Assembly (NCBI GenBank): GCA_019694655.1
Contig: JAIBBN010000009.1
Location: forward strand, 1 to 64,000
Direction of reading: 5' to 3'
Length of the DNA: 64,000 nucleotides
From: Leptospirales bacterium
GTDB lineage: Bacteria > Spirochaetota > Leptospiria > Leptospirales > Leptonemataceae
Shown here: positions 26,700 to 48,131 of the stretch, piece by piece
Numbering within the stretch: position 1 is the first letter of the stretch
Layout of the letters: each line of letters opens with the position of its first letter
Program-made: the position numbers and the translations under genes
Notes under the pieces: generated by a model
What the model saw: only the letters and a program-made list of their open reading frames with translations
The model's database searches: none
What the model was told of the DNA's origin: nothing

Positions 26700-27389
26700 G
26701 TGGATCAATGGAAGATGGAAACTCTGCTGAATCCCGGCGCGCTGCAAACAGTGCGCGTTGTATTCCTGGCCATTGTGCTGCTGCGTGTCGGCGTCACCCT
26801 GGCCAGACTGCTGATCATTCTGCAGCGCAAGATGCTGCCTGAAATTCGGCGATTTGCTGATGATTTTCTGCAATGGCGGGCGCTTTCGCGCAGCTGGCTG
26901 GGGCTGTCGCTCAGCATCAGTTCGTGGATTGGCTACTTCTTTATTTACTGGCTTTCCGCTCGCACAACCGACCTATCGCTGGCGGAGGCCTTCGCGCTGC
27001 GCCCATCGGCCTTGCTGATTGTAGGCGCCGGGTTGCTTGGACTTGCGGCCTACGCCGTCTATCGCAGCTGGGATCAGATACGCGATACAATCCGCATCTG
27101 TGATCAGTTGAAAACCTTTCGACTCTATCACCACTACAAAGACGGCGTGGAAAAACTACAGCGCAGCGAATGGATGGAAGCGACCGTGGCCGGTCAGGCG
27201 GCAAGCCTCGGCCTTTCGCTGCTTACAGCAGCGACAGACTCCGTGGTTCGCTCCGCTGTAAGTCATCATGCCGGGCAGACGGCGGCCTTCTTTGCCTTGC
27301 TGCTGGGCATTGAGTCCGCCGGCCGAATCCTGCTGGTCTTTCTGGCAGTCTATGCCGCGACCGGCGATCCCTTCTTCGTGTGGTCTTAG
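26700..27389 (+). CDS. Integral membrane protein, unknown
   Basis: A 229-residue protein with about five membrane segments (e.g. TVRVVFLAIVLLRVGVTLAR, WLGLSLSISSWIGYFFIYWL, LLIVGAGLLGLAAYAVYRSW, and two at the C-terminus) and a charged cytoplasmic loop (LKTFRLYHHYKDGVEKLQRS). No family recognised. GTG 26700 and ATG 26715 are both possible starts. Close behind the DUF5715 gene (18 bases), so probably co-transcribed, and ended by a strong hairpin. Confidence 0.6.
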   Translation: MDQWKMETLLNPGALQTVRVVFLAIVLLRVGVTLARLLIILQRKMLPEIRRFADDFLQWRALSRSWLGLSLSISSWIGYFFIYWLSARTTDLSLAEAFALRPSALLIVGAGLLGLAAYAVYRSWDQIRDTIRICDQLKTFRLYHHYKDGVEKLQRSEWMEATVAGQAASLGLSLLTAATDSVVRSAVSHHAGQTAAFFALLLGIESAGRILLVFLAVYAATGDPFFVWS

Positions 27390-27436
27390 AGCCGGTCTCC
27401 AAACGACCTTCCTGCCGTTTTGAGACCGGCTCTTAA
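27386..27436. terminator. Long hairpin between convergent genes, likely bidirectional terminator
   Basis: TTA-AGAGCCGGTCTC-AAACG at 27386-27406 pairs with CGTTTT-GAGACCGGCTCT-TAA at 27416-27436, a stem of about 20 pairs with one mismatch around a short loop. It spans the stop codons of both convergent genes. A-rich and T-rich bases flank the stem on either side. Confidence 0.75.
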
Positions 27437-28395
27437 CCCGCTTGCTCGCGCGATTGCTTCAGCTTGCGGGCGTGTAACAGGTATTGCAATGCGCGGTCGG
27501 TATCGCCCTTGAAGAGGTGCAAAAAGCTGAGGTCCACAAAGTCGCGCAGCTCTTGCTTCATCTCTTCCTGGACATCCTGCGAACCTTCCAGTCCCAGACG
27601 TTGCGGCGCACGCGCCGCCGGATCCAGGGCGCCCAGCCGCCGCTTACGCGCTTCGATGCGCCCCCGCAAGCGTTGGGCGCGGTCGCGAATGCGATCATCG
27701 ATGCCGGCAAGCGCCTGTTCGTAGTCGGCAGCGTTGTCTTTGCGCGCCTGCTGAAGATAGTCTGTAAAGCTGGAGTAGCCGCTCGACTCGCGGGCCAGAC
27801 GCTGGTACTCGGCCAGCGATTCATCGTGACGATTGAGCTTCAGCAACAGCGCGGCGCGCAGATTGTTGACGCTGTTATCCGCCGGCAATCGTTGCCGGCA
27901 GAGCTCCAGTACGCTCAGCGCTTCCTCAAAGCGTTCCAGCTGCGATAGCAGTACCGCATAGCCCAGCGAAGCCATCCGGTTGCCGGGTTCCAGCTTCAAG
28001 GCATTCTGGAAGTAGATCGCGGCGCGCTCGGGCGCCTGCAGTCGATCGTAAACATAAGCCAGCAGTATGTGACCCTTAAGCATGCGCGTGTTCAACTTGA
28101 GCGCGCGCTTCAGGTATTGCGCGCTTTCATCAAAGCGCTCCAGGCGGTAACACTCGGCGCCCAGGTTGTAGTAGATGGTTTCGTCCTGCCCCAATTCCAG
28201 GGCGCGCTGATAGAAGCCCATGGCCAGATCGGCGCGACCGTGCCGACTGTAGAGCGCGCCCAGATTGAGAAAGGCCGGCCGCAGCGTGTGATCGGCGCGC
28301 GCCGCTGCCTTGTAGAGCCGAACAGCCTCGGACAGTTTGCCGCTGCGCTCGGCGTGAAGCGCCGCGTTAAAAAGTTGTCTGGGGTCTACAGCCAT
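27433..28395 (-). CDS. TPR-repeat protein
   Basis: A 320-residue cytoplasmic protein with about six tetratricopeptide repeats over residues 5-210, e.g. LYKAAARADHTLRPAFLNLG, GFYQRALELGQDETIYYNLG, YLKRALKLNTRMLKGHILLA and YFQNALKLEPGNRMASLGYA. A charged C-terminal region follows (IEARKRRLGALDPAARAPQR). It should act as a protein-interaction scaffold. The stop lies inside the bidirectional terminator. It is downstream of nadC on the same strand with an 86-base gap; no functional link is visible. Confidence 0.8.
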   Translation of the reverse strand: MAVDPRQLFNAALHAERSGKLSEAVRLYKAAARADHTLRPAFLNLGALYSRHGRADLAMGFYQRALELGQDETIYYNLGAECYRLERFDESAQYLKRALKLNTRMLKGHILLAYVYDRLQAPERAAIYFQNALKLEPGNRMASLGYAVLLSQLERFEEALSVLELCRQRLPADNSVNNLRAALLLKLNRHDESLAEYQRLARESSGYSSFTDYLQQARKDNAADYEQALAGIDDRIRDRAQRLRGRIEARKRRLGALDPAARAPQRLGLEGSQDVQEEMKQELRDFVDLSFLHLFKGDTDRALQYLLHARKLKQSREQAG

Positions 28396-34225: not shown

Positions 34226-35020
34226 ATGAAAACGATCGACGTAGAAATCCTCAAGCAGGAGGAGGGCGGCAACATTGCCGTGCTCTATCTGGACAACGCG
34301 GAAACTCGTAATTCGCTAACCCTCGAACTGGGGCTGCAGTTCCACCACGAGATCACGCGGCTTTCCACAGATGAGTCCGAGATCCGGGCGCTTGTAATCA
34401 GCGGACGCAACGGCGTGTTTTCCAGCGGCGGCGACTTTGGTTTGCTGGCCAGCTTTGCCGAACGAGATCCCGATGAGAATCGCAGCTTCATGGGCTCCTT
34501 TTACCGACTCTTCTTGAGCGTTCGCAGCGCTCCTTTTCCCGTCATTGCTGCTGTCAACGGACACGCCGTCGGCGCTTCGCTGGCCCTCGCGCTGGCCTGC
34601 GATATTCGCTATTTTGTTCCAGACGCAAAGTATGCCTTTAATTTTGTGCGCATTGGCATCCATCCCGGCATGGGTTCCAGCTTCCTGGTCAAGGAGGTCG
34701 CCGGTCTACATCAAGCGCAGGAGCTGCTGCTCAGCGGGCGCTACTTCTCCGGGGAGGAGGCCTTACGTCGCGGTTTGTGCCATGATGTATTTCCGGCAGC
34801 GCAAGTGATGGAGCGGGCGCTGGAGACGGCCCGCGAAATTGCCGCTGCCGCGCCCCAGGCCGTGCGTCTGTTGAAAAAGGGTCTGTACCTGAACCACAGT
34901 CTTGAAGAAGCGTTGGACTACGAGGCGGCGGCGCAGGCCGAAAACTACCAGAGCGAGGATTTCCGGGAGGCGCTGCGTTCCATTGGCGAGAAGCGCAGTC
35001 CACGCTTTCGCGGCGTCTGA
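34226..35020 (+). CDS. Enoyl-CoA hydratase/isomerase family protein
   Basis: From ATG 34226 (AGGGGA 7 bases upstream) the protein has 264 residues with the crotonase fold: DNAETRNSLTLELGLQFHHE, VISGRNGVFSSGGDFGLLAS (oxyanion hole), VIAAVNGHAVGASLALALAC and FNFVRIGIHPGMGSSFLVKE. The second acid position of classical hydratases (GxxE near residue 140) reads GMGSS, so isomerase or another crotonase reaction is as likely as hydration. Probably in fatty-acid or aromatic acyl-CoA breakdown. Confidence 0.83.
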   Translation: MKTIDVEILKQEEGGNIAVLYLDNAETRNSLTLELGLQFHHEITRLSTDESEIRALVISGRNGVFSSGGDFGLLASFAERDPDENRSFMGSFYRLFLSVRSAPFPVIAAVNGHAVGASLALALACDIRYFVPDAKYAFNFVRIGIHPGMGSSFLVKEVAGLHQAQELLLSGRYFSGEEALRRGLCHDVFPAAQVMERALETAREIAAAAPQAVRLLKKGLYLNHSLEEALDYEAAAQAENYQSEDFREALRSIGEKRSPRFRGV

Positions 35021-35060: not shown

Positions 35061-35278
35061 GCCGGCCCAGGGCCGGCGGCATCTATTTGGAGTGCGTCCC
35101 AAAACTCCATCCGTGGAGTCTTGGGACAAACGGAACGGTTTTCAAAATTCACGGCATTGCCTTCGGCAATGGCGAATTCCATGGAGAATTCGCATGAATT
35201 TTTCAACCGTTCCTCACATTCGGTTTGCGAATGGCGCGACCTCCTGTCGCTTGGAGCCGGTCTTAGGACCGGCTCCAA
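35061..35278. repeat. Intergenic cluster of nested hairpins
   Basis: Five inverted repeats occur in 218 bases: 35061-35077 (GCCGGCCC/GGGCCGGC), 35096-35127 (14-bp arms, one mismatch, TCCG loop), an outer pair GGAACGGTT 35132-35140/AACCGTTCC 35205-35213 enclosing two perfect hairpins (35155-35171 CATTGCC/GGCAATG; 35172-35193 GCGAATTC/GAATTCGC), and 35251-35278 (TTGGAGCCGGTC-TTAG-GACCGGCTCCAA). No protein frame fits. It lies between the crotonase gene and mltG. Confidence 0.6.
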
Positions 35279-35323: not shown

Positions 35324-36328
35324 ATGGGATCTGCTCGCATGAAGAAAATGCTGATTCTGGCGCTGGCCGTCGGCGGAGCATTGCTGCTGGGCGGCTTTGC
35401 CCTGGTGCAGTGGCGGGGCGCCGCGGCCGGCGACGGTACGCATCGCGTTGAATTTGAAGTGGCCGCGGGGGCTGGCGCCCTGAGCGTTTCGCGCGCCCTG
35501 AAAGATCAAGGATTGGTGCGCGATGCCGACTGGTTTCGCACCTACCTGCGTTTGCGGGGACTCTCCGGAAAACTGAAAACTGGCGTCTATGAATTGAACG
35601 ACGGAATGAGCGTCGGCCAAATAGCCGCGATACTGAGCGAGGGTCGCGTTCGTTTGATTGCCTTAACCATTCCGGAGGGCTGGAACAATCGCCAAATCGG
35701 CGACTACCTGGCGGAGAAGGGATTTGTGCGCGACCGCGCCGAGTTTCTGAGAATAGCCAGCGATCCAGACACGTTGCGGCGCTACGGAATTTCCGACGCC
35801 AGTACCGAGGGCTATCTGTTCCCGGAAACCTACATGGCCCCGCCTGGCTATCCGGCGGCGAAGCTTCAGGAACTGATGCTCAAGCGCTACCAGCAGGTTC
35901 TCAAGGAAGTTGTCGGCGATCGTCAGTACTCGCCGGTTGAGCTCCGCGAACGGGTGATCCTGGCAAGCATCGTGGAACGCGAGGCGGTGCGACCGGAAGA
36001 GCGGCCCATGATGTCGCAGGTGTTTCTGAACCGTCTGCACAAGCGTATGCGTCTGGAGTCCTGCGCTACCATTCAATACTTGCTGGATCGGCCGCGCGCA
36101 AAGCTGTACGACAAAGATCTTCAGATTGTATCGCCTTACAATACCTATCGAAATGCGGGCCTGCCGCCAGGGCCCATTTCCAATCCAGGGCGGGCGGCCA
36201 TTGAGGCGGCTTTTGCTCCGGCGCAATCCGAGTTCCTGTATTTTGTCCTGAAACCGGACGGCTCCCATCATTTTAGCGCAACCTACAGCGAACACCTTGA
36301 AGCCAAGCGACGCTATCTCGGCGGCTGA
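35324..36328 (+). CDS. mltG: Endolytic murein transglycosylase
   Basis: A 334-residue YceG/MltG protein: N-terminal membrane anchor (MLILALAVGGALLLGGFALV), a LysM-like region (FEVAAGAGALSVSRALKDQG), and the catalytic domain with IPEGWNNRQIGDYL, YLFPETY, ILASIVEREAVRPEERPMMS (catalytic Glu of VERE), NRLHKRMRLESCATIQYLLD, SPYNTYRNAGLPPGPISNPG and a final FVLKPDGSHHFSATYSEH. It cuts nascent glycan strands at the inner membrane and sets chain length. An alternative ATG lies at 35339. Confidence 0.92.
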   Translation: MGSARMKKMLILALAVGGALLLGGFALVQWRGAAAGDGTHRVEFEVAAGAGALSVSRALKDQGLVRDADWFRTYLRLRGLSGKLKTGVYELNDGMSVGQIAAILSEGRVRLIALTIPEGWNNRQIGDYLAEKGFVRDRAEFLRIASDPDTLRRYGISDASTEGYLFPETYMAPPGYPAAKLQELMLKRYQQVLKEVVGDRQYSPVELRERVILASIVEREAVRPEERPMMSQVFLNRLHKRMRLESCATIQYLLDRPRAKLYDKDLQIVSPYNTYRNAGLPPGPISNPGRAAIEAAFAPAQSEFLYFVLKPDGSHHFSATYSEHLEAKRRYLGG

Positions 36329-36490: not shown

Positions 36491-38311
36491 ATGCGTACAA
36501 TAACAATTGCATCTGTCCTGGCCGGCGCTCTGACTCTGGCCTTTGTCGTCGCCGCCTCGCTGCAGGCCAATGATCAGCATCCGCTGGATGCAGTTTACCA
36601 GCAGGCGACCGGCAAACATCCGCAAACTGCGGCGCCGGCCGCTATCTTGCGCCGGATGTCGCTTCAATTGCGAGGCTCGATACCGCGACTGGCCGAGCTA
36701 CAGGATTTCGAAGGCCAGCCGGATGACGCGCAACGTCGCTATGCAATCGCTTTCTTACGCGACCCTGAATTCGCCGAATACTGGGGATCCTATCTTGCGT
36801 CTCTTTTTCGCGATCGTACGCAGGAGAAAAACAGCGTCTATGGGGGCTTTCAGCGCTACCTGTCGCAATCGCTCCATGAAAACAAGCCTTACAATCAAAT
36901 GGCAGTCGAGATGATTACGGCAAGCGGGTCGCCAGAGCAGAATCCGGCCGCGGGCTTCTACCTGCGCGATGACGCTGATCCGCTGCAGATTGCTGAGTAT
37001 GCGGGCCGACTGTTCTACGGTCGTAAGGTGCAGTGCGCTCGCTGCCACGATCATCCCTATCAACCTGACTTCAAGCGTCGCGACTACTATGGTCTGGCCG
37101 CATTTTTCAGCCAGACCTACGCCTCCAACGAGTACTATCGCGACTGGGAACAATTTGCCGGCCGGCCCTGGCTGCCAGGCGATCGTCGCAACGACTTGAG
37201 CGAGGAGGATCGCAAGCTCTGGCAGGAGAAGGAGCGAGAATTCAATCGCGAGGTGCTGGCGCGCCTCAGCGACCAGCAAAAGCGCGATCGTCGTCAGGCG
37301 GCGCGGCTTCCCTTGCGAACTATTTTCTATGACCCCGGCCTTGGCTTGCGCTACCCGACAAGCGACCTCGAACCGGGCGGCGATCTGGTTGAGGCGCGCT
37401 ATCCAGATGGGACGCGCGCCGTTTTGCGACCCGGCCAGGACCGGCGCGCAGCCTTTGCCGCCTGGCTGACAGCGCCGGAAAATGTACGCTTTCGCAAGGT
37501 GATCATCAATCGCATCTGGCATCGCCTGATGGGCTGGAGCTTCTTTGAGCCTTTCGATGACTGGAATCAAGAAACGGAGATGCGGTCGCCGGAGTTGCTG
37601 GATCACCTCGAAAAGGCGTTTCTGGCGCGCGGCTTTCGCATCAAGGATCTCATCCTCTACATTGTCAGCAGCGAGGCCTACGCCCGGTCTGCGCCGCCGC
37701 CCAATGCTGCGGATTCTGGCGACGTGCAACTTTACTTTCAGCCGCAGCGTCTGGATGCCGATCAGCTGATGAACTCGCTGATACGCGCAGCGCAGGCCGC
37801 GAAAGTAAGCGAGCTGCGCGAGCGAGCGTCGCTGCCGCCCGCCGCGGCAGCGCAATCAGATACAGACTTGAGCGGCGTGGGAACGCTGCGACTGCCGATC
37901 CAGAACAACCGCGACTTCGTCGTCGCCTCGCAGGTCCCGCGACCCGCGGACTACTCCAGCTTTCATGCCGTATTTGGCGCCGGTCCGCGCATCGACATCG
38001 ACGATGATGATCGCACCCTGACCATCGAGCAGATTCTGACGCTGATCAACGGCCGACTGACCGGCCGTCTGGCCTGGGAATTTGCCGGCGCCGACACTCT
38101 ATTCAAAGCGGAGTTTGACCGCAGCGGCATGGAGGGCGCCATGAATCTGACCTTTCGCAGCGCCCTGTCCCGCAACTGGACTCCGGAAGAGAAGCAATCG
38201 GTCTTGAGACTGGTCCAGGGACGACTGGCGCGTCCCCAGTATGATCAGGCAGCGCTACAAGATCTACTCTGGGCGCTCTTTAACAGCATGGAGTTTCAAC
38301 ATGTCAATTGA
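36491..38311 (+). CDS. DUF1549/DUF1553 protein with CxxCH motif, secreted
   Basis: The 606-residue protein has an N-terminal signal (TIASVLAGALTLAFVVAASL), a DUF1549 part (AILRRMSLQLRGSIPRLAEL, EFAEYWGSYLASLFRDRTQE, and a CARCHDHPYQPDFKRRDYYG heme-type CxxCH), and a DUF1553 part (FRKVIINRIWHRLMGWSFFE, LDHLEKAFLARGFRIKDLIL). Such proteins are abundant in Planctomycetes beside DUF1501 proteins, as here: the next gene starts 11 bases inside this one's stop. Function is unknown; one heme could bind to the CxxCH. Confidence 0.8.
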   Translation: MRTITIASVLAGALTLAFVVAASLQANDQHPLDAVYQQATGKHPQTAAPAAILRRMSLQLRGSIPRLAELQDFEGQPDDAQRRYAIAFLRDPEFAEYWGSYLASLFRDRTQEKNSVYGGFQRYLSQSLHENKPYNQMAVEMITASGSPEQNPAAGFYLRDDADPLQIAEYAGRLFYGRKVQCARCHDHPYQPDFKRRDYYGLAAFFSQTYASNEYYRDWEQFAGRPWLPGDRRNDLSEEDRKLWQEKEREFNREVLARLSDQQKRDRRQAARLPLRTIFYDPGLGLRYPTSDLEPGGDLVEARYPDGTRAVLRPGQDRRAAFAAWLTAPENVRFRKVIINRIWHRLMGWSFFEPFDDWNQETEMRSPELLDHLEKAFLARGFRIKDLILYIVSSEAYARSAPPPNAADSGDVQLYFQPQRLDADQLMNSLIRAAQAAKVSELRERASLPPAAAAQSDTDLSGVGTLRLPIQNNRDFVVASQVPRPADYSSFHAVFGAGPRIDIDDDDRTLTIEQILTLINGRLTGRLAWEFAGADTLFKAEFDRSGMEGAMNLTFRSALSRNWTPEEKQSVLRLVQGRLARPQYDQAALQDLLWALFNSMEFQHVN

Positions 38312-39638
38312 TAGAATGATACAGATACTGCGGCGCGCATCCATGAGCCGCGGCGAATTCTTAAAGGGCGCCGGTGCGGCGCTGGCCGGCGCGGCCGCGG
38401 CGCAGGTCTTTGGCCGGAGGCTGCACGCCGAAGACATCTACGACGACGTGACTTTGCCATCGCCGGTCAAGAGCGTCATTTTCTTGAATATGGCCGGCGG
38501 CATGAGCCACATTGATACGCTCGACCCCAAACCCGGGCTGACAAACTTCGCTGCCGTAGACAGCGCCATTCCCTCGTTGCGCGTGGCGGAAACTTTTCAG
38601 AAAACGGCGCGCGTCCTGAACCATCTTTCGGTAATTCGAACAACCTGGAGCGAGGAGGGCGATCACGGCTTCGGGCAGTACCTGTTGAATAGCGGATACC
38701 GCATGAGCGAGGGGCGCGGCTTTCCGGATCTGCCGAACTTTGGATCGATGATTGCCTACGTAAAAAAACGCAACGCCGAGGCAGGACCCTATTTCCCTTC
38801 GCAGATCACGCTGGGAGAACGCAGCGGCTTGATCGGCCGCCCCGGATTTCTCGGCGTGCATTACGCCGGCTTTCATATTGGCAACCTCAACCAACCGGTC
38901 AATCACCTGCGCCCGGCCTGGGGCCGCTATACGCCGGAGCGTCTTGCCCGCCGCGAACAACTGCTGAACATTGTCAATGGCCCCTTCAAGGCGCAGAACT
39001 CGGCGGCGGCGATAGGCTACTGGGACAAGAGTTTCGAGGCGGCGCTGGACTTCATGAACACCGATCGCCTTTCCGTTTTCGATATTGCGCGCGAACCGGC
39101 GGCGTTGCGCGCTCGTTTTGGCGAGAGCTGGGCGGGCAAAGCGCTGCTGATGGCGCGCCGGCTGGCGGAAGCGGAGATTCCCTTCATTCAGGTGACGCTG
39201 GGCGGTTGGGATACGCACAACAACAACCGCGATCGCGTGGCGACGATTTGCAGGGATCTGGATGGCGCTATCGCAACCTTAACTGCGGAACTGGCCAGCA
39301 GCGGATTGTTGAAACAGACGCTGCTTGTCCTATCTACAGAATTCGGCCGCACGCCGGAGGTGGGCGGACGGGATGGTCGCGATCATTTTCCATCTTGCTG
39401 GACGACGTTGATCGGCGGCGGCGCTATTCCTGGCGGCGTGGTAGTTGGCGAGTCCAACGAGAAAGGAACCCGCGAGCGACAGGGATCGGAACGCTATCAC
39501 TGGCGCGATGTGATGGCAACGATCTATCGCGCTGCGGGAATTGACCACGAGGCCCATTTGACAAACTCGGCAGGACGCCCTCTGCCCTTCGTACCGCGGT
39601 CGGCGAAGCCAATCGCGGCGCTGCTGCCTGGCGCCTGA
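38301..39638 (+). CDS. DUF1501 (sulfatase-like fold) protein, probable Tat substrate
   Basis: From ATG 38301 the 445-residue protein has an N-terminal region MSRGEFLKGAGAALAGAAAA, a Tat-like signal in which the twin-Arg is reduced to SRGEFL, then DUF1501: KSVIFLNMAGGMSHIDTLDP, SVIRTTWSEEGDHGFGQYLL, FIQVTLGGWDTHNNNRDRVA, and LLVLSTEFGRTPEVGGRDGR DHF. The metal-type Asp, His and Glu-Phe-Gly-Arg motifs are all present. Overlaps the DUF1549/1553 gene, so the two likely act together. Substrate unknown. Confidence 0.82.
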   Translation: MSIDRMIQILRRASMSRGEFLKGAGAALAGAAAAQVFGRRLHAEDIYDDVTLPSPVKSVIFLNMAGGMSHIDTLDPKPGLTNFAAVDSAIPSLRVAETFQKTARVLNHLSVIRTTWSEEGDHGFGQYLLNSGYRMSEGRGFPDLPNFGSMIAYVKKRNAEAGPYFPSQITLGERSGLIGRPGFLGVHYAGFHIGNLNQPVNHLRPAWGRYTPERLARREQLLNIVNGPFKAQNSAAAIGYWDKSFEAALDFMNTDRLSVFDIAREPAALRARFGESWAGKALLMARRLAEAEIPFIQVTLGGWDTHNNNRDRVATICRDLDGAIATLTAELASSGLLKQTLLVLSTEFGRTPEVGGRDGRDHFPSCWTTLIGGGAIPGGVVVGESNEKGTRERQGSERYHWRDVMATIYRAAGIDHEAHLTNSAGRPLPFVPRSAKPIAALLPGA

Positions 39639-46791: not shown

Positions 46792-47133
46792 ATGCCCGAT
46801 CGTCCCCACTACTACGATTCCCAGGACTTGAAAAAGTTTGGCGATATTGGCCGCTTCCAGCCGCAACTGGGGAAGGCATATTTTGACTATTACAACCAAT
46901 CGATGGCCGCTGGCGCCCTCAGCGAGCGTGAGAAGGCGTTGATTGCTCTGGCTGTAGCGCATGCGCTGAAGTGTCCCTATTGCATCGACGCATACAGTCA
47001 TACCTGTCTGGAAAAAGGCGCAGACCAGGAACAGATGATGGAGGCGGTGCACGTCGCGGCGGCAATGGCCGCCGGCATTACGCTGGTGCACAGCGTGCAG
47101 ATGATGAATCACGTCGACAATACTGCGCTATGA
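46792..47133 (+). CDS. Arsenosugar biosynthesis-associated peroxidase-like protein (carboxymuconolactone decarboxylase family)
   Basis: From ATG 46792 (AGGAG 7 bases upstream) the 113-residue protein has an AhpD-like fold with the redox motif CPYCIDAYSHTCLEKG and EREKALIALAVAHAL. This form, followed at once by ArsS, is the arsenosugar-associated peroxidase-like protein. Its stop overlaps the arsS start by 4 bases (ATGA). It may handle thiol or peroxide chemistry during arsenosugar synthesis; this is inferred from the neighbour. Confidence 0.85.
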   Translation: MPDRPHYYDSQDLKKFGDIGRFQPQLGKAYFDYYNQSMAAGALSEREKALIALAVAHALKCPYCIDAYSHTCLEKGADQEQMMEAVHVAAAMAAGITLVHSVQMMNHVDNTAL

Positions 47134-48131
47134 GTCGTTCCAGCATCAGTTCTGGGATGCAGCTCAAGGCGCTGTCCGATACGGCGCCGGACTTCACAGC
47201 ACGCCTGGCGGAAATTTCAGGTCAGCGTCGGCTTGGCGCCGCCGAGCTACAAACTTTGCAAATCAATGTTGGCAAGGTTTGCAACCAGGCCTGTCGGCAT
47301 TGTCATGTGGACGCCTCTCCGATGCGCAGCGAGAGCATGAATGCCGAAGTTGCGCAGCTTTGCTTGCAGGCCCTTGCCCGATTGCCCGGCGTTGATACCG
47401 TAGATATTACCGGCGGGGCCCCGGAATTGAATCCAAACTTCCGAATGCTGGTGCGCGAGTCGCGCGCCCTTGGGAAGCTTGTCATTGATCGTTGCAACCT
47501 GACGATCTTGCAAGAGCCTGGCCAGGAAGATCTGGCCGAGTTTCTGGCTTCGCAGCAAGCCGAGATTGTGGCTTCGCTGCCGCACTTTGCCGCAGCGCGC
47601 ACGGATCAGCAGCGTGGCCGCGGCGTATTTGAGCGTTCCATAGCCGCTTTGCGCAAACTCAACGAACTTGGATACGGCGATCAGCTCAGGCTAAATCTGG
47701 TCTACAATCCCAGCGGCCTGTTCCTGGCCGGTCAGCAAGCGCAGCTGGAGCGCGAGTTCCGTGAGCGATTAGCCGCCGACTTTGGCATCCGTTTTCACAA
47801 TCTATATTGCATGAACAATATGCCGATCAGCAGGTTTCTGGAGTCGCTGCTGCGCGCCAACAAGCTGGAAGAATATATGAGTATGCTGGCCGGGGCCTTT
47901 AACCCGGCGACCTTGGATGGGCTGATGTGCCGCCGACAGGTTTCGGTTGGCTATGATGGCCAGCTCTATGATTGCGATTTTAATCAGATGCTGGAGTTGC
48001 CGGCGGCGATCGGGCACATTGGCGATCTCAACCAGGCTGACTGGGAGGCCCGATCGATTGTGCTGCACAACCATTGCTTTGCCTGTACCGCTGGCAGCGG
48101 TTCCAGTTGTGGCGGCGCGCTGAGCGCCTGA
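47130..48131 (+). CDS. arsS: Arsenosugar biosynthesis radical SAM protein ArsS
   Basis: A 333-residue radical SAM enzyme with the cluster motif CNQACRHCHVDASP, the ITGGAPELNPNFRMLVRESR block and a C-terminal Cys-rich end (FACTAGSGSSCGGALS) of the DUF3641 type. ArsS transfers the 5'-deoxyadenosyl-derived moiety to dimethylarsenite in the arsenosugar pathway. It is translationally coupled to the peroxidase-like gene. arsM (arsenite methyltransferase), which would make its substrate, is not seen in this window. Confidence 0.9.
   Translation: MSRSSISSGMQLKALSDTAPDFTARLAEISGQRRLGAAELQTLQINVGKVCNQACRHCHVDASPMRSESMNAEVAQLCLQALARLPGVDTVDITGGAPELNPNFRMLVRESRALGKLVIDRCNLTILQEPGQEDLAEFLASQQAEIVASLPHFAAARTDQQRGRGVFERSIAALRKLNELGYGDQLRLNLVYNPSGLFLAGQQAQLEREFRERLAADFGIRFHNLYCMNNMPISRFLESLLRANKLEEYMSMLAGAFNPATLDGLMCRRQVSVGYDGQLYDCDFNQMLELPAAIGHIGDLNQADWEARSIVLHNHCFACTAGSGSSCGGALSA

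Follow-up and report, generated by a model that had tools for sequence, protein, structure and literature searches.

A dispersed, non-autonomous transposable element with a conserved five-hairpin fold and predicted CsrA-type loops in a Leptospirales genome

In this work we analysed a nested hairpin block in a window of 64,000 nucleotides (the whole stretch of DNA under study) from a Leptospirales bacterium. The block is almost certainly one copy of a dispersed, non-autonomous DNA transposon of the MITE-like kind, and selection in the lineage that propagates has very probably preserved its five-hairpin fold. The best reading, which we hold with moderate confidence, is that of a non-autonomous transposable element with a predicted CsrA-binding RNA on its minus strand. 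The label 'RNA' is drawn only from the strand-specific loop motif and from predicted folding, and the conserved fold could be at work either in RNA or in single-stranded DNA. The parts of the window copy are listed in Table 1.

Table 1. Position of the element, its parts and a short family member in the window.
Feature	Positions	Strand	Basis
Whole element, 186 bp	35090..35275	+ (H1 to H5 taken as +)	End-to-end alignment with 7 copies, 78–92% identity; flanks unalignable
Left terminal inverted repeat GAGTGCGTCCCAAAA	35090..35104	+	Pattern match; inverted partner at right end
Hairpin H1	35096..35127	+	MFE fold; inner left end repeat folded on its own inverted copy
Candidate CsrA-type loop CACGGATG in H1	35108..35115	-	GGA unpaired
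H2 domain: outer 9-bp stem, second stem (35144–35151/35195–35202), two inner hairpins	35132..35213	+	MFE fold
Hairpin H3 (CATTCG...CGAATG)	35217..35233	+	MFE fold, copy alignment
Hairpin H4 (GCGAC-CTCCT-GTCGC)	35236..35250	+	MFE fold, copy alignment
Candidate CsrA-type loop CAGGAGG in H4	35240..35246	-	GGA unpaired
Terminal hairpin H5 with right terminal inverted repeat GACCGGCTC	35251..35278	+	MFE fold; element ends at 35275
GC-rich palindrome GCCGGCC/GGCCGGC, outside the element	35061..35077	+	Absent in all other copies
Short family member, 44 bp	27389..27432	+	TTA target duplication at 27386–27388 and 27433–27435; pattern match

The block, taken as 35061–35278, folds with a minimum free energy (MFE) of -114.3 kcal/mol, compared with -70.4 ± 4.6 kcal/mol in 200 dinucleotide shuffles (z = -9.6, 0/200). 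An earlier note had proposed that it is a structured RNA or a MITE-like element, and both halves of this proposal were right, as it is a MITE-like element with a conserved structure. The nested hairpins described there were all located in the sequence and in the MFE fold, including the outer 9-bp stem around two hairpins (GGAACGGTT/AACCGTTCC, 35132–35140 with 35205–35213, enclosing 35155–35171 and 35172–35193) and the last hairpin (35251–35262/35267–35278) with its GAGCCGGTC arm. The five palindromes counted are real, but the count is too low, since the MFE fold contains seven or eight hairpins, and the boundaries needed correction: because the first palindrome is missing from every other copy, the unit is 35090–35275 and that palindrome is flank. 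The block had also been described as free of coding frames; open reading frames do cross it in several frames (130 aa on the plus strand, 285 aa on the minus strand), by chance extension only, and the real genes around it are a crotonase-family gene that ends at 35020 and mltG (MltG), which starts at 35324. Its reported dissimilarity to simple terminators was borne out by a loose terminator scan, in which matches were about as frequent as expected from shuffled sequence and only the flank palindrome 35061–35077 and the inner hairpin 35172–35193 passed; a simple terminator was rejected on these grounds. The flank palindrome, whose match in the scan has a weak T tract, is possibly the terminator of the upstream gene. 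No Rfam family matched over the block at the gathering or a relaxed threshold, and no promoter-like site was seen within the element. Elsewhere in the window, a PSCyt2/PSD1 (DUF1549/DUF1553) gene and a DUF1501 gene that follows and overlaps it occupy positions 36491–39638, a pairing associated with planctomycetes, and positions 46971–48131 encode the arsenosugar biosynthesis radical SAM protein ArsS.

The source genome contains 8 full copies at 78–100% identity (a DNA search returned 7 further copies, 78–92% identical over 180–189 bp), together with many matches to H1 only, as a search for further copies suggested in the earlier note revealed. These H1-only matches are short forms, about 12 in number and 44–50 bp long: palindromes in which the left end with the H1 arm is joined directly to the right end. 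Loss of the interior between the TTTTGGGAC arms, which are repeated in H1 and H5, would have produced them. A 152-bp subtype is found at C1:332898–333049, and there are further partial copies. The short member in the window belongs to a second subtype, with the minus-strand loop CAGGAAG. This 44-bp palindrome sits exactly between two gene ends, and the TTA duplication on its right side doubles as the stop codon of a leftward TPR gene (27433–28395).

Evidence for mobility comes from the ends and from their flanks. Both element ends carry GARSNNRTCYCAAAA as terminal inverted repeats, and TNA is present on both sides in 29 of 53 copies, being identical in 26 of these 29 (permutation p<1e-5), with agreement of the middle base as well. 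As these flanks are identical and not complementary, they represent a target duplication and not a longer inverted repeat. In about 10 copies the duplicated TAA (or TTA) forms the stop codon of an adjoining long reading frame. The window copy has outer flanks TTG/CAA, and its target duplication is no longer seen. Relative to the neighbouring genes, 14 copies are in sense and 16 in antisense orientation, which is no bias.

The ends point to IS5- and IS1182-type elements, although the element, unlike these, has no transposase. Its end repeats resemble those of the IS5-like (IS1031/IS427-like) copies of genome G006 (GAAGCCATCTCAAA, with TA duplications), whereas two elements in G176 have ends like those of an IS1182-like IS of G140 (AGAGCCTGTGCGCCAAC) and are flanked by 4-bp duplications, TGAT/TGAT and CACA/CACA. 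Most copies have 3-bp TNA duplications, compared with TA (IS5-type) or 4 bp (IS1182) for the IS copies of G006. The IS1182-type ends in G176, set against the TNA-type ends, suggest that the same core rides on different kinds of ends, as it appears to do. The arms of H1 and H5 are palindromised end repeats, and their sequence shifts together with the end type. The IS1182-like IS of G140 (L138:572–2318, contig C117) has perfect 33-bp inverted repeats and the same end type as the G176 structured elements. In one G006 copy (L083:1513–1542), H1 reads GTCGAAAAACC...GGTTTTTCGAC, matching the ends of the G006 IS1182 copies, and the plus strand carries its GGA loop, which would fit an inversion or a replacement of the hairpin. 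Searches with DDE_Tnp_1, DUF4096, end-pattern pairs and left-end-only copies yielded no autonomous partner with TNA-type ends in the genomes searched, and the only DDE_Tnp_1 match of the source genome is a split IS1182-like remnant (C10:4422; L070:1462–2879). A DDE transposase acting in trans would move the element, with a specificity that is probably IS5- or IS1182-like.

A DNA similarity search of the genomes of 20 relatives gave no match. A covariance model built from the 8 copies recovered relatives of about 167 bp in five other genera of the same family, with strong matches in G006, G012 and G008, moderate ones in G004 and weak ones in G005, and a second model (R2) matched genomes of other families and classes of the phylum (G123, G146, G130, G140, G135, G176 and G199); outside the family, E values went down to 1e-25. 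In G012, about 40 matches, long and short, were found by DNA search. These model matches show the same architecture in nine or more further genera of the phylum, a lower bound because the large phylum scan was filtered strictly. The common order is H1, H2 (with tip AGCAAAGCT or a variant), H3, H4 (loop NTCC) and H5, and shorter G135 copies are without H3. The enlarged H2 domain with two inner hairpins is common to all 8 long copies of the window subtype; in other genera H2 is simpler, with the AGCAAAGCT tip. A pattern scan of genome contigs yielded no more than five isolated matches, all from unrelated organisms, which we take as chance, and a scan of viral contigs with a too-loose pattern gave 80 loci with no convincing full element among them. 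In the literature searched, which mostly excluded subscription papers, we found no description of this element family or of CsrA sites in a MITE. One copy in G006 adjoins a TPP riboswitch (L072:1402–1492; Rfam RF00059, 71.7 bits).

Covariation, which the earlier note had also named as a check, is present as compensatory changes across genera. In alignment A4 (14 elements of four genera, aligned with MAFFT on sequence alone) both sides have changed in 28 of 42 pairs, against 13.8 ± 2.0 in shuffles, and these changes are spread over eight of nine helices; 94.8% of cells are paired, compared with 79.6 ± 1.0% in shuffles and 34–49% for slid structures. In a set of 13 sequences, one or few per genus and reaching other families, the count is 34 of 42 pairs, in an alignment that was fitted to the model. 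The H4 helix (helix 7) covaries between genera at 6 of its 7 pairs. The stems are almost entirely Watson–Crick, with little wobble. Among the copies of the source genome double changes occur in the pairs of H1, but in the interior helices every change is one-sided or breaks the pair, with no double changes and many uncorrected mismatches. This lack of compensation within one genome indicates that the fold belongs to the propagating lineage and not to each insertion, and that the majority of insertions are not preserved as functional RNAs. Individual insertions therefore drift, and the fold is kept in the lineage from which new copies arise.

The apical loops of H1 and H4 are, in our judgement, fairly likely to be CsrA-type sites. 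On the minus strand they read CACGGATG/CATGGATG in H1 and CAGGA(A/C/G/T)G in H4, with CAGGGATG in G140. The motif CA(N)GGANG was counted in 50 copies: the minus strand yielded 71 matches where dinucleotide shuffles predict 4.1, and the plus strand 1 where they predict 3.0. These 71 matches are not independent, because the copies are related. Almost all of the sampled genera have the motif, and the loops are kept where the stems have turned over. Unpaired GGA (>0.8) is found in 72 cases on the minus strand and 9 on the plus strand, and for 40 of the 50 copies the minus strand gives the more stable fold. Across families, the TCC columns of the H4 loop have an entropy of 0–0.4 bits, compared with 0.8–1.8 bits for most stem columns, and the closing C–G pair and the next A–U pair are conserved (A-C...G-U closing). 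In the source genome, the only one checked, csrA lies directly beside fliW and a flagellin-type gene. The SELEX consensus for CsrA is RUACARGGAUGU, with GGA in a hexaloop and with AC and GU paired, and CsrB carries CAGGA(U/A/C)G motifs (PMC7652899); the G140 copies contain GUACAGGGAUGU, an exact match to this consensus. Binding to a GGA hexaloop has been seen in a gel-shift assay with a Leptospira CsrA (PMC8668096). Each element has only two CsrA-type sites, about 90–130 nt apart, which is far fewer than in CsrB.

These loops can also be read as part of a plain structured MITE, an explanation that we regard as possible rather than probable, in which the fold serves mobility or harmlessness (hairpin ends as transposase sites, insulation from transcription) and it is the mobilisation machinery, not CsrA, that recognises the TCC/GGA loops. 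A DDE transposase requires only the ends, yet H2 to H4 covary and keep their loop sequences, and the loop motif is strand-specific and agrees with the CsrA consensus even in its closing pairs. The neutral drift of copies once inserted, the absence of orientation bias and the dependence of the palindromised H1 and H5 arms on end type all agree with a plain structured MITE, for which structured bacterial MITEs at gene ends, a known class, provide a precedent (PMC2229807, PMC3049150). An antisense-type small RNA from the plus strand, whose exposed UCC loops would pair with Shine–Dalgarno or other GGA sequences, is very unlikely. It could account for the CTCC/TTCC loops on the plus strand and for the wobble pairs of the interior helices (A6), where 7 GU against 1 AC slightly favour the plus strand, a weak signal that is opposite to the CsrA reading. 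However, the anti-Shine–Dalgarno core CCTCC is unconserved between genera (ATCC, TTCC), the conserved positions other than UCC (closing C–G, A–U, T before the closing G) are those that CsrA needs and not those of an anti-Shine–Dalgarno sequence, and fold stability is greater on the minus strand.

Template switching during replication could correct palindromes and in this way produce compensatory changes in the absence of selection; the scarcity of wobble pairs in the stems speaks for it. We consider this improbable as the origin of the covariation, as the interior stems of the source genome hold many uncorrected mismatches and no double changes, and internal and apical loops are conserved between genera. 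REP/BIME-type repeats moved by a RAYT (Y1) transposase share with the element a short palindromic form, an intergenic location and multiple copies; this system is contradicted by the target duplications and terminal inverted repeats and by a source genome in which no Y1_Tnp was found, and we give it next to no credence.

BOX and RUP of Streptococcus pneumoniae, ERIC, YPAL/RU-2 and Correia/NEMIS are bacterial MITEs with folded transcripts (PMC2229807, PMC3049150, PMC10969869). Like them, the element is non-coding, shorter than 200 bp in its main forms, strongly folded, bounded by terminal inverted repeats and short target duplications, and intergenic, near or at stop codons. It differs from them in its unrelated sequence and architecture, its TNA duplication, the palindromisation of its ends into hairpins, its phylum-scale covariation across genera and its two CsrA-type loops. 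The structured repeats of Borrelia plasmids (PMC2674063) are likewise intergenic with compensatory changes, but they are simple, plasmid-borne stem-loops with no mobility evidence and with sequences unlike those of the element. With the decoys CsrB, CsrC and RsmZ, known mainly from Gammaproteobacteria, it shares GGA in hairpin loops and the motifs CAGGA(N)G and CANGGANG (PMC7652899); in contrast to these decoys, it has two sites, is mobile and dispersed, and shows no dedicated promoter.

If the CsrA reading is correct, the minus strand would be transcribed by read-through from neighbouring genes, and its H1 and H4 would present A(N)GGA loops closed by C–G and bind a CsrA dimer. The RNA of the element would then act as a small CsrA decoy, or bring CsrA to the host transcript; that the element has a biological effect through CsrA is a more tentative proposition than the sites themselves, and we hold it with some doubt.

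Bacterial MITEs are usually called structured from single-sequence folding. For this element, compensatory changes between genera and between families back the fold, whereas single insertions decay; selection acting on the mobile lineage can thus be told apart from selection at the host locus. Should the loops bind CsrA, the transposon would distribute binding sites of a global regulator and would offer a route to CsrA regulons and decoy RNAs outside Gammaproteobacteria. More speculatively, a phylum-wide transposable family may spread predicted CsrA-binding hairpins as mobile decoys or recruitment sites in bacteria in which FliW is regarded as the main control on CsrA, and could be a raw source of CsrB-like decoy RNAs.
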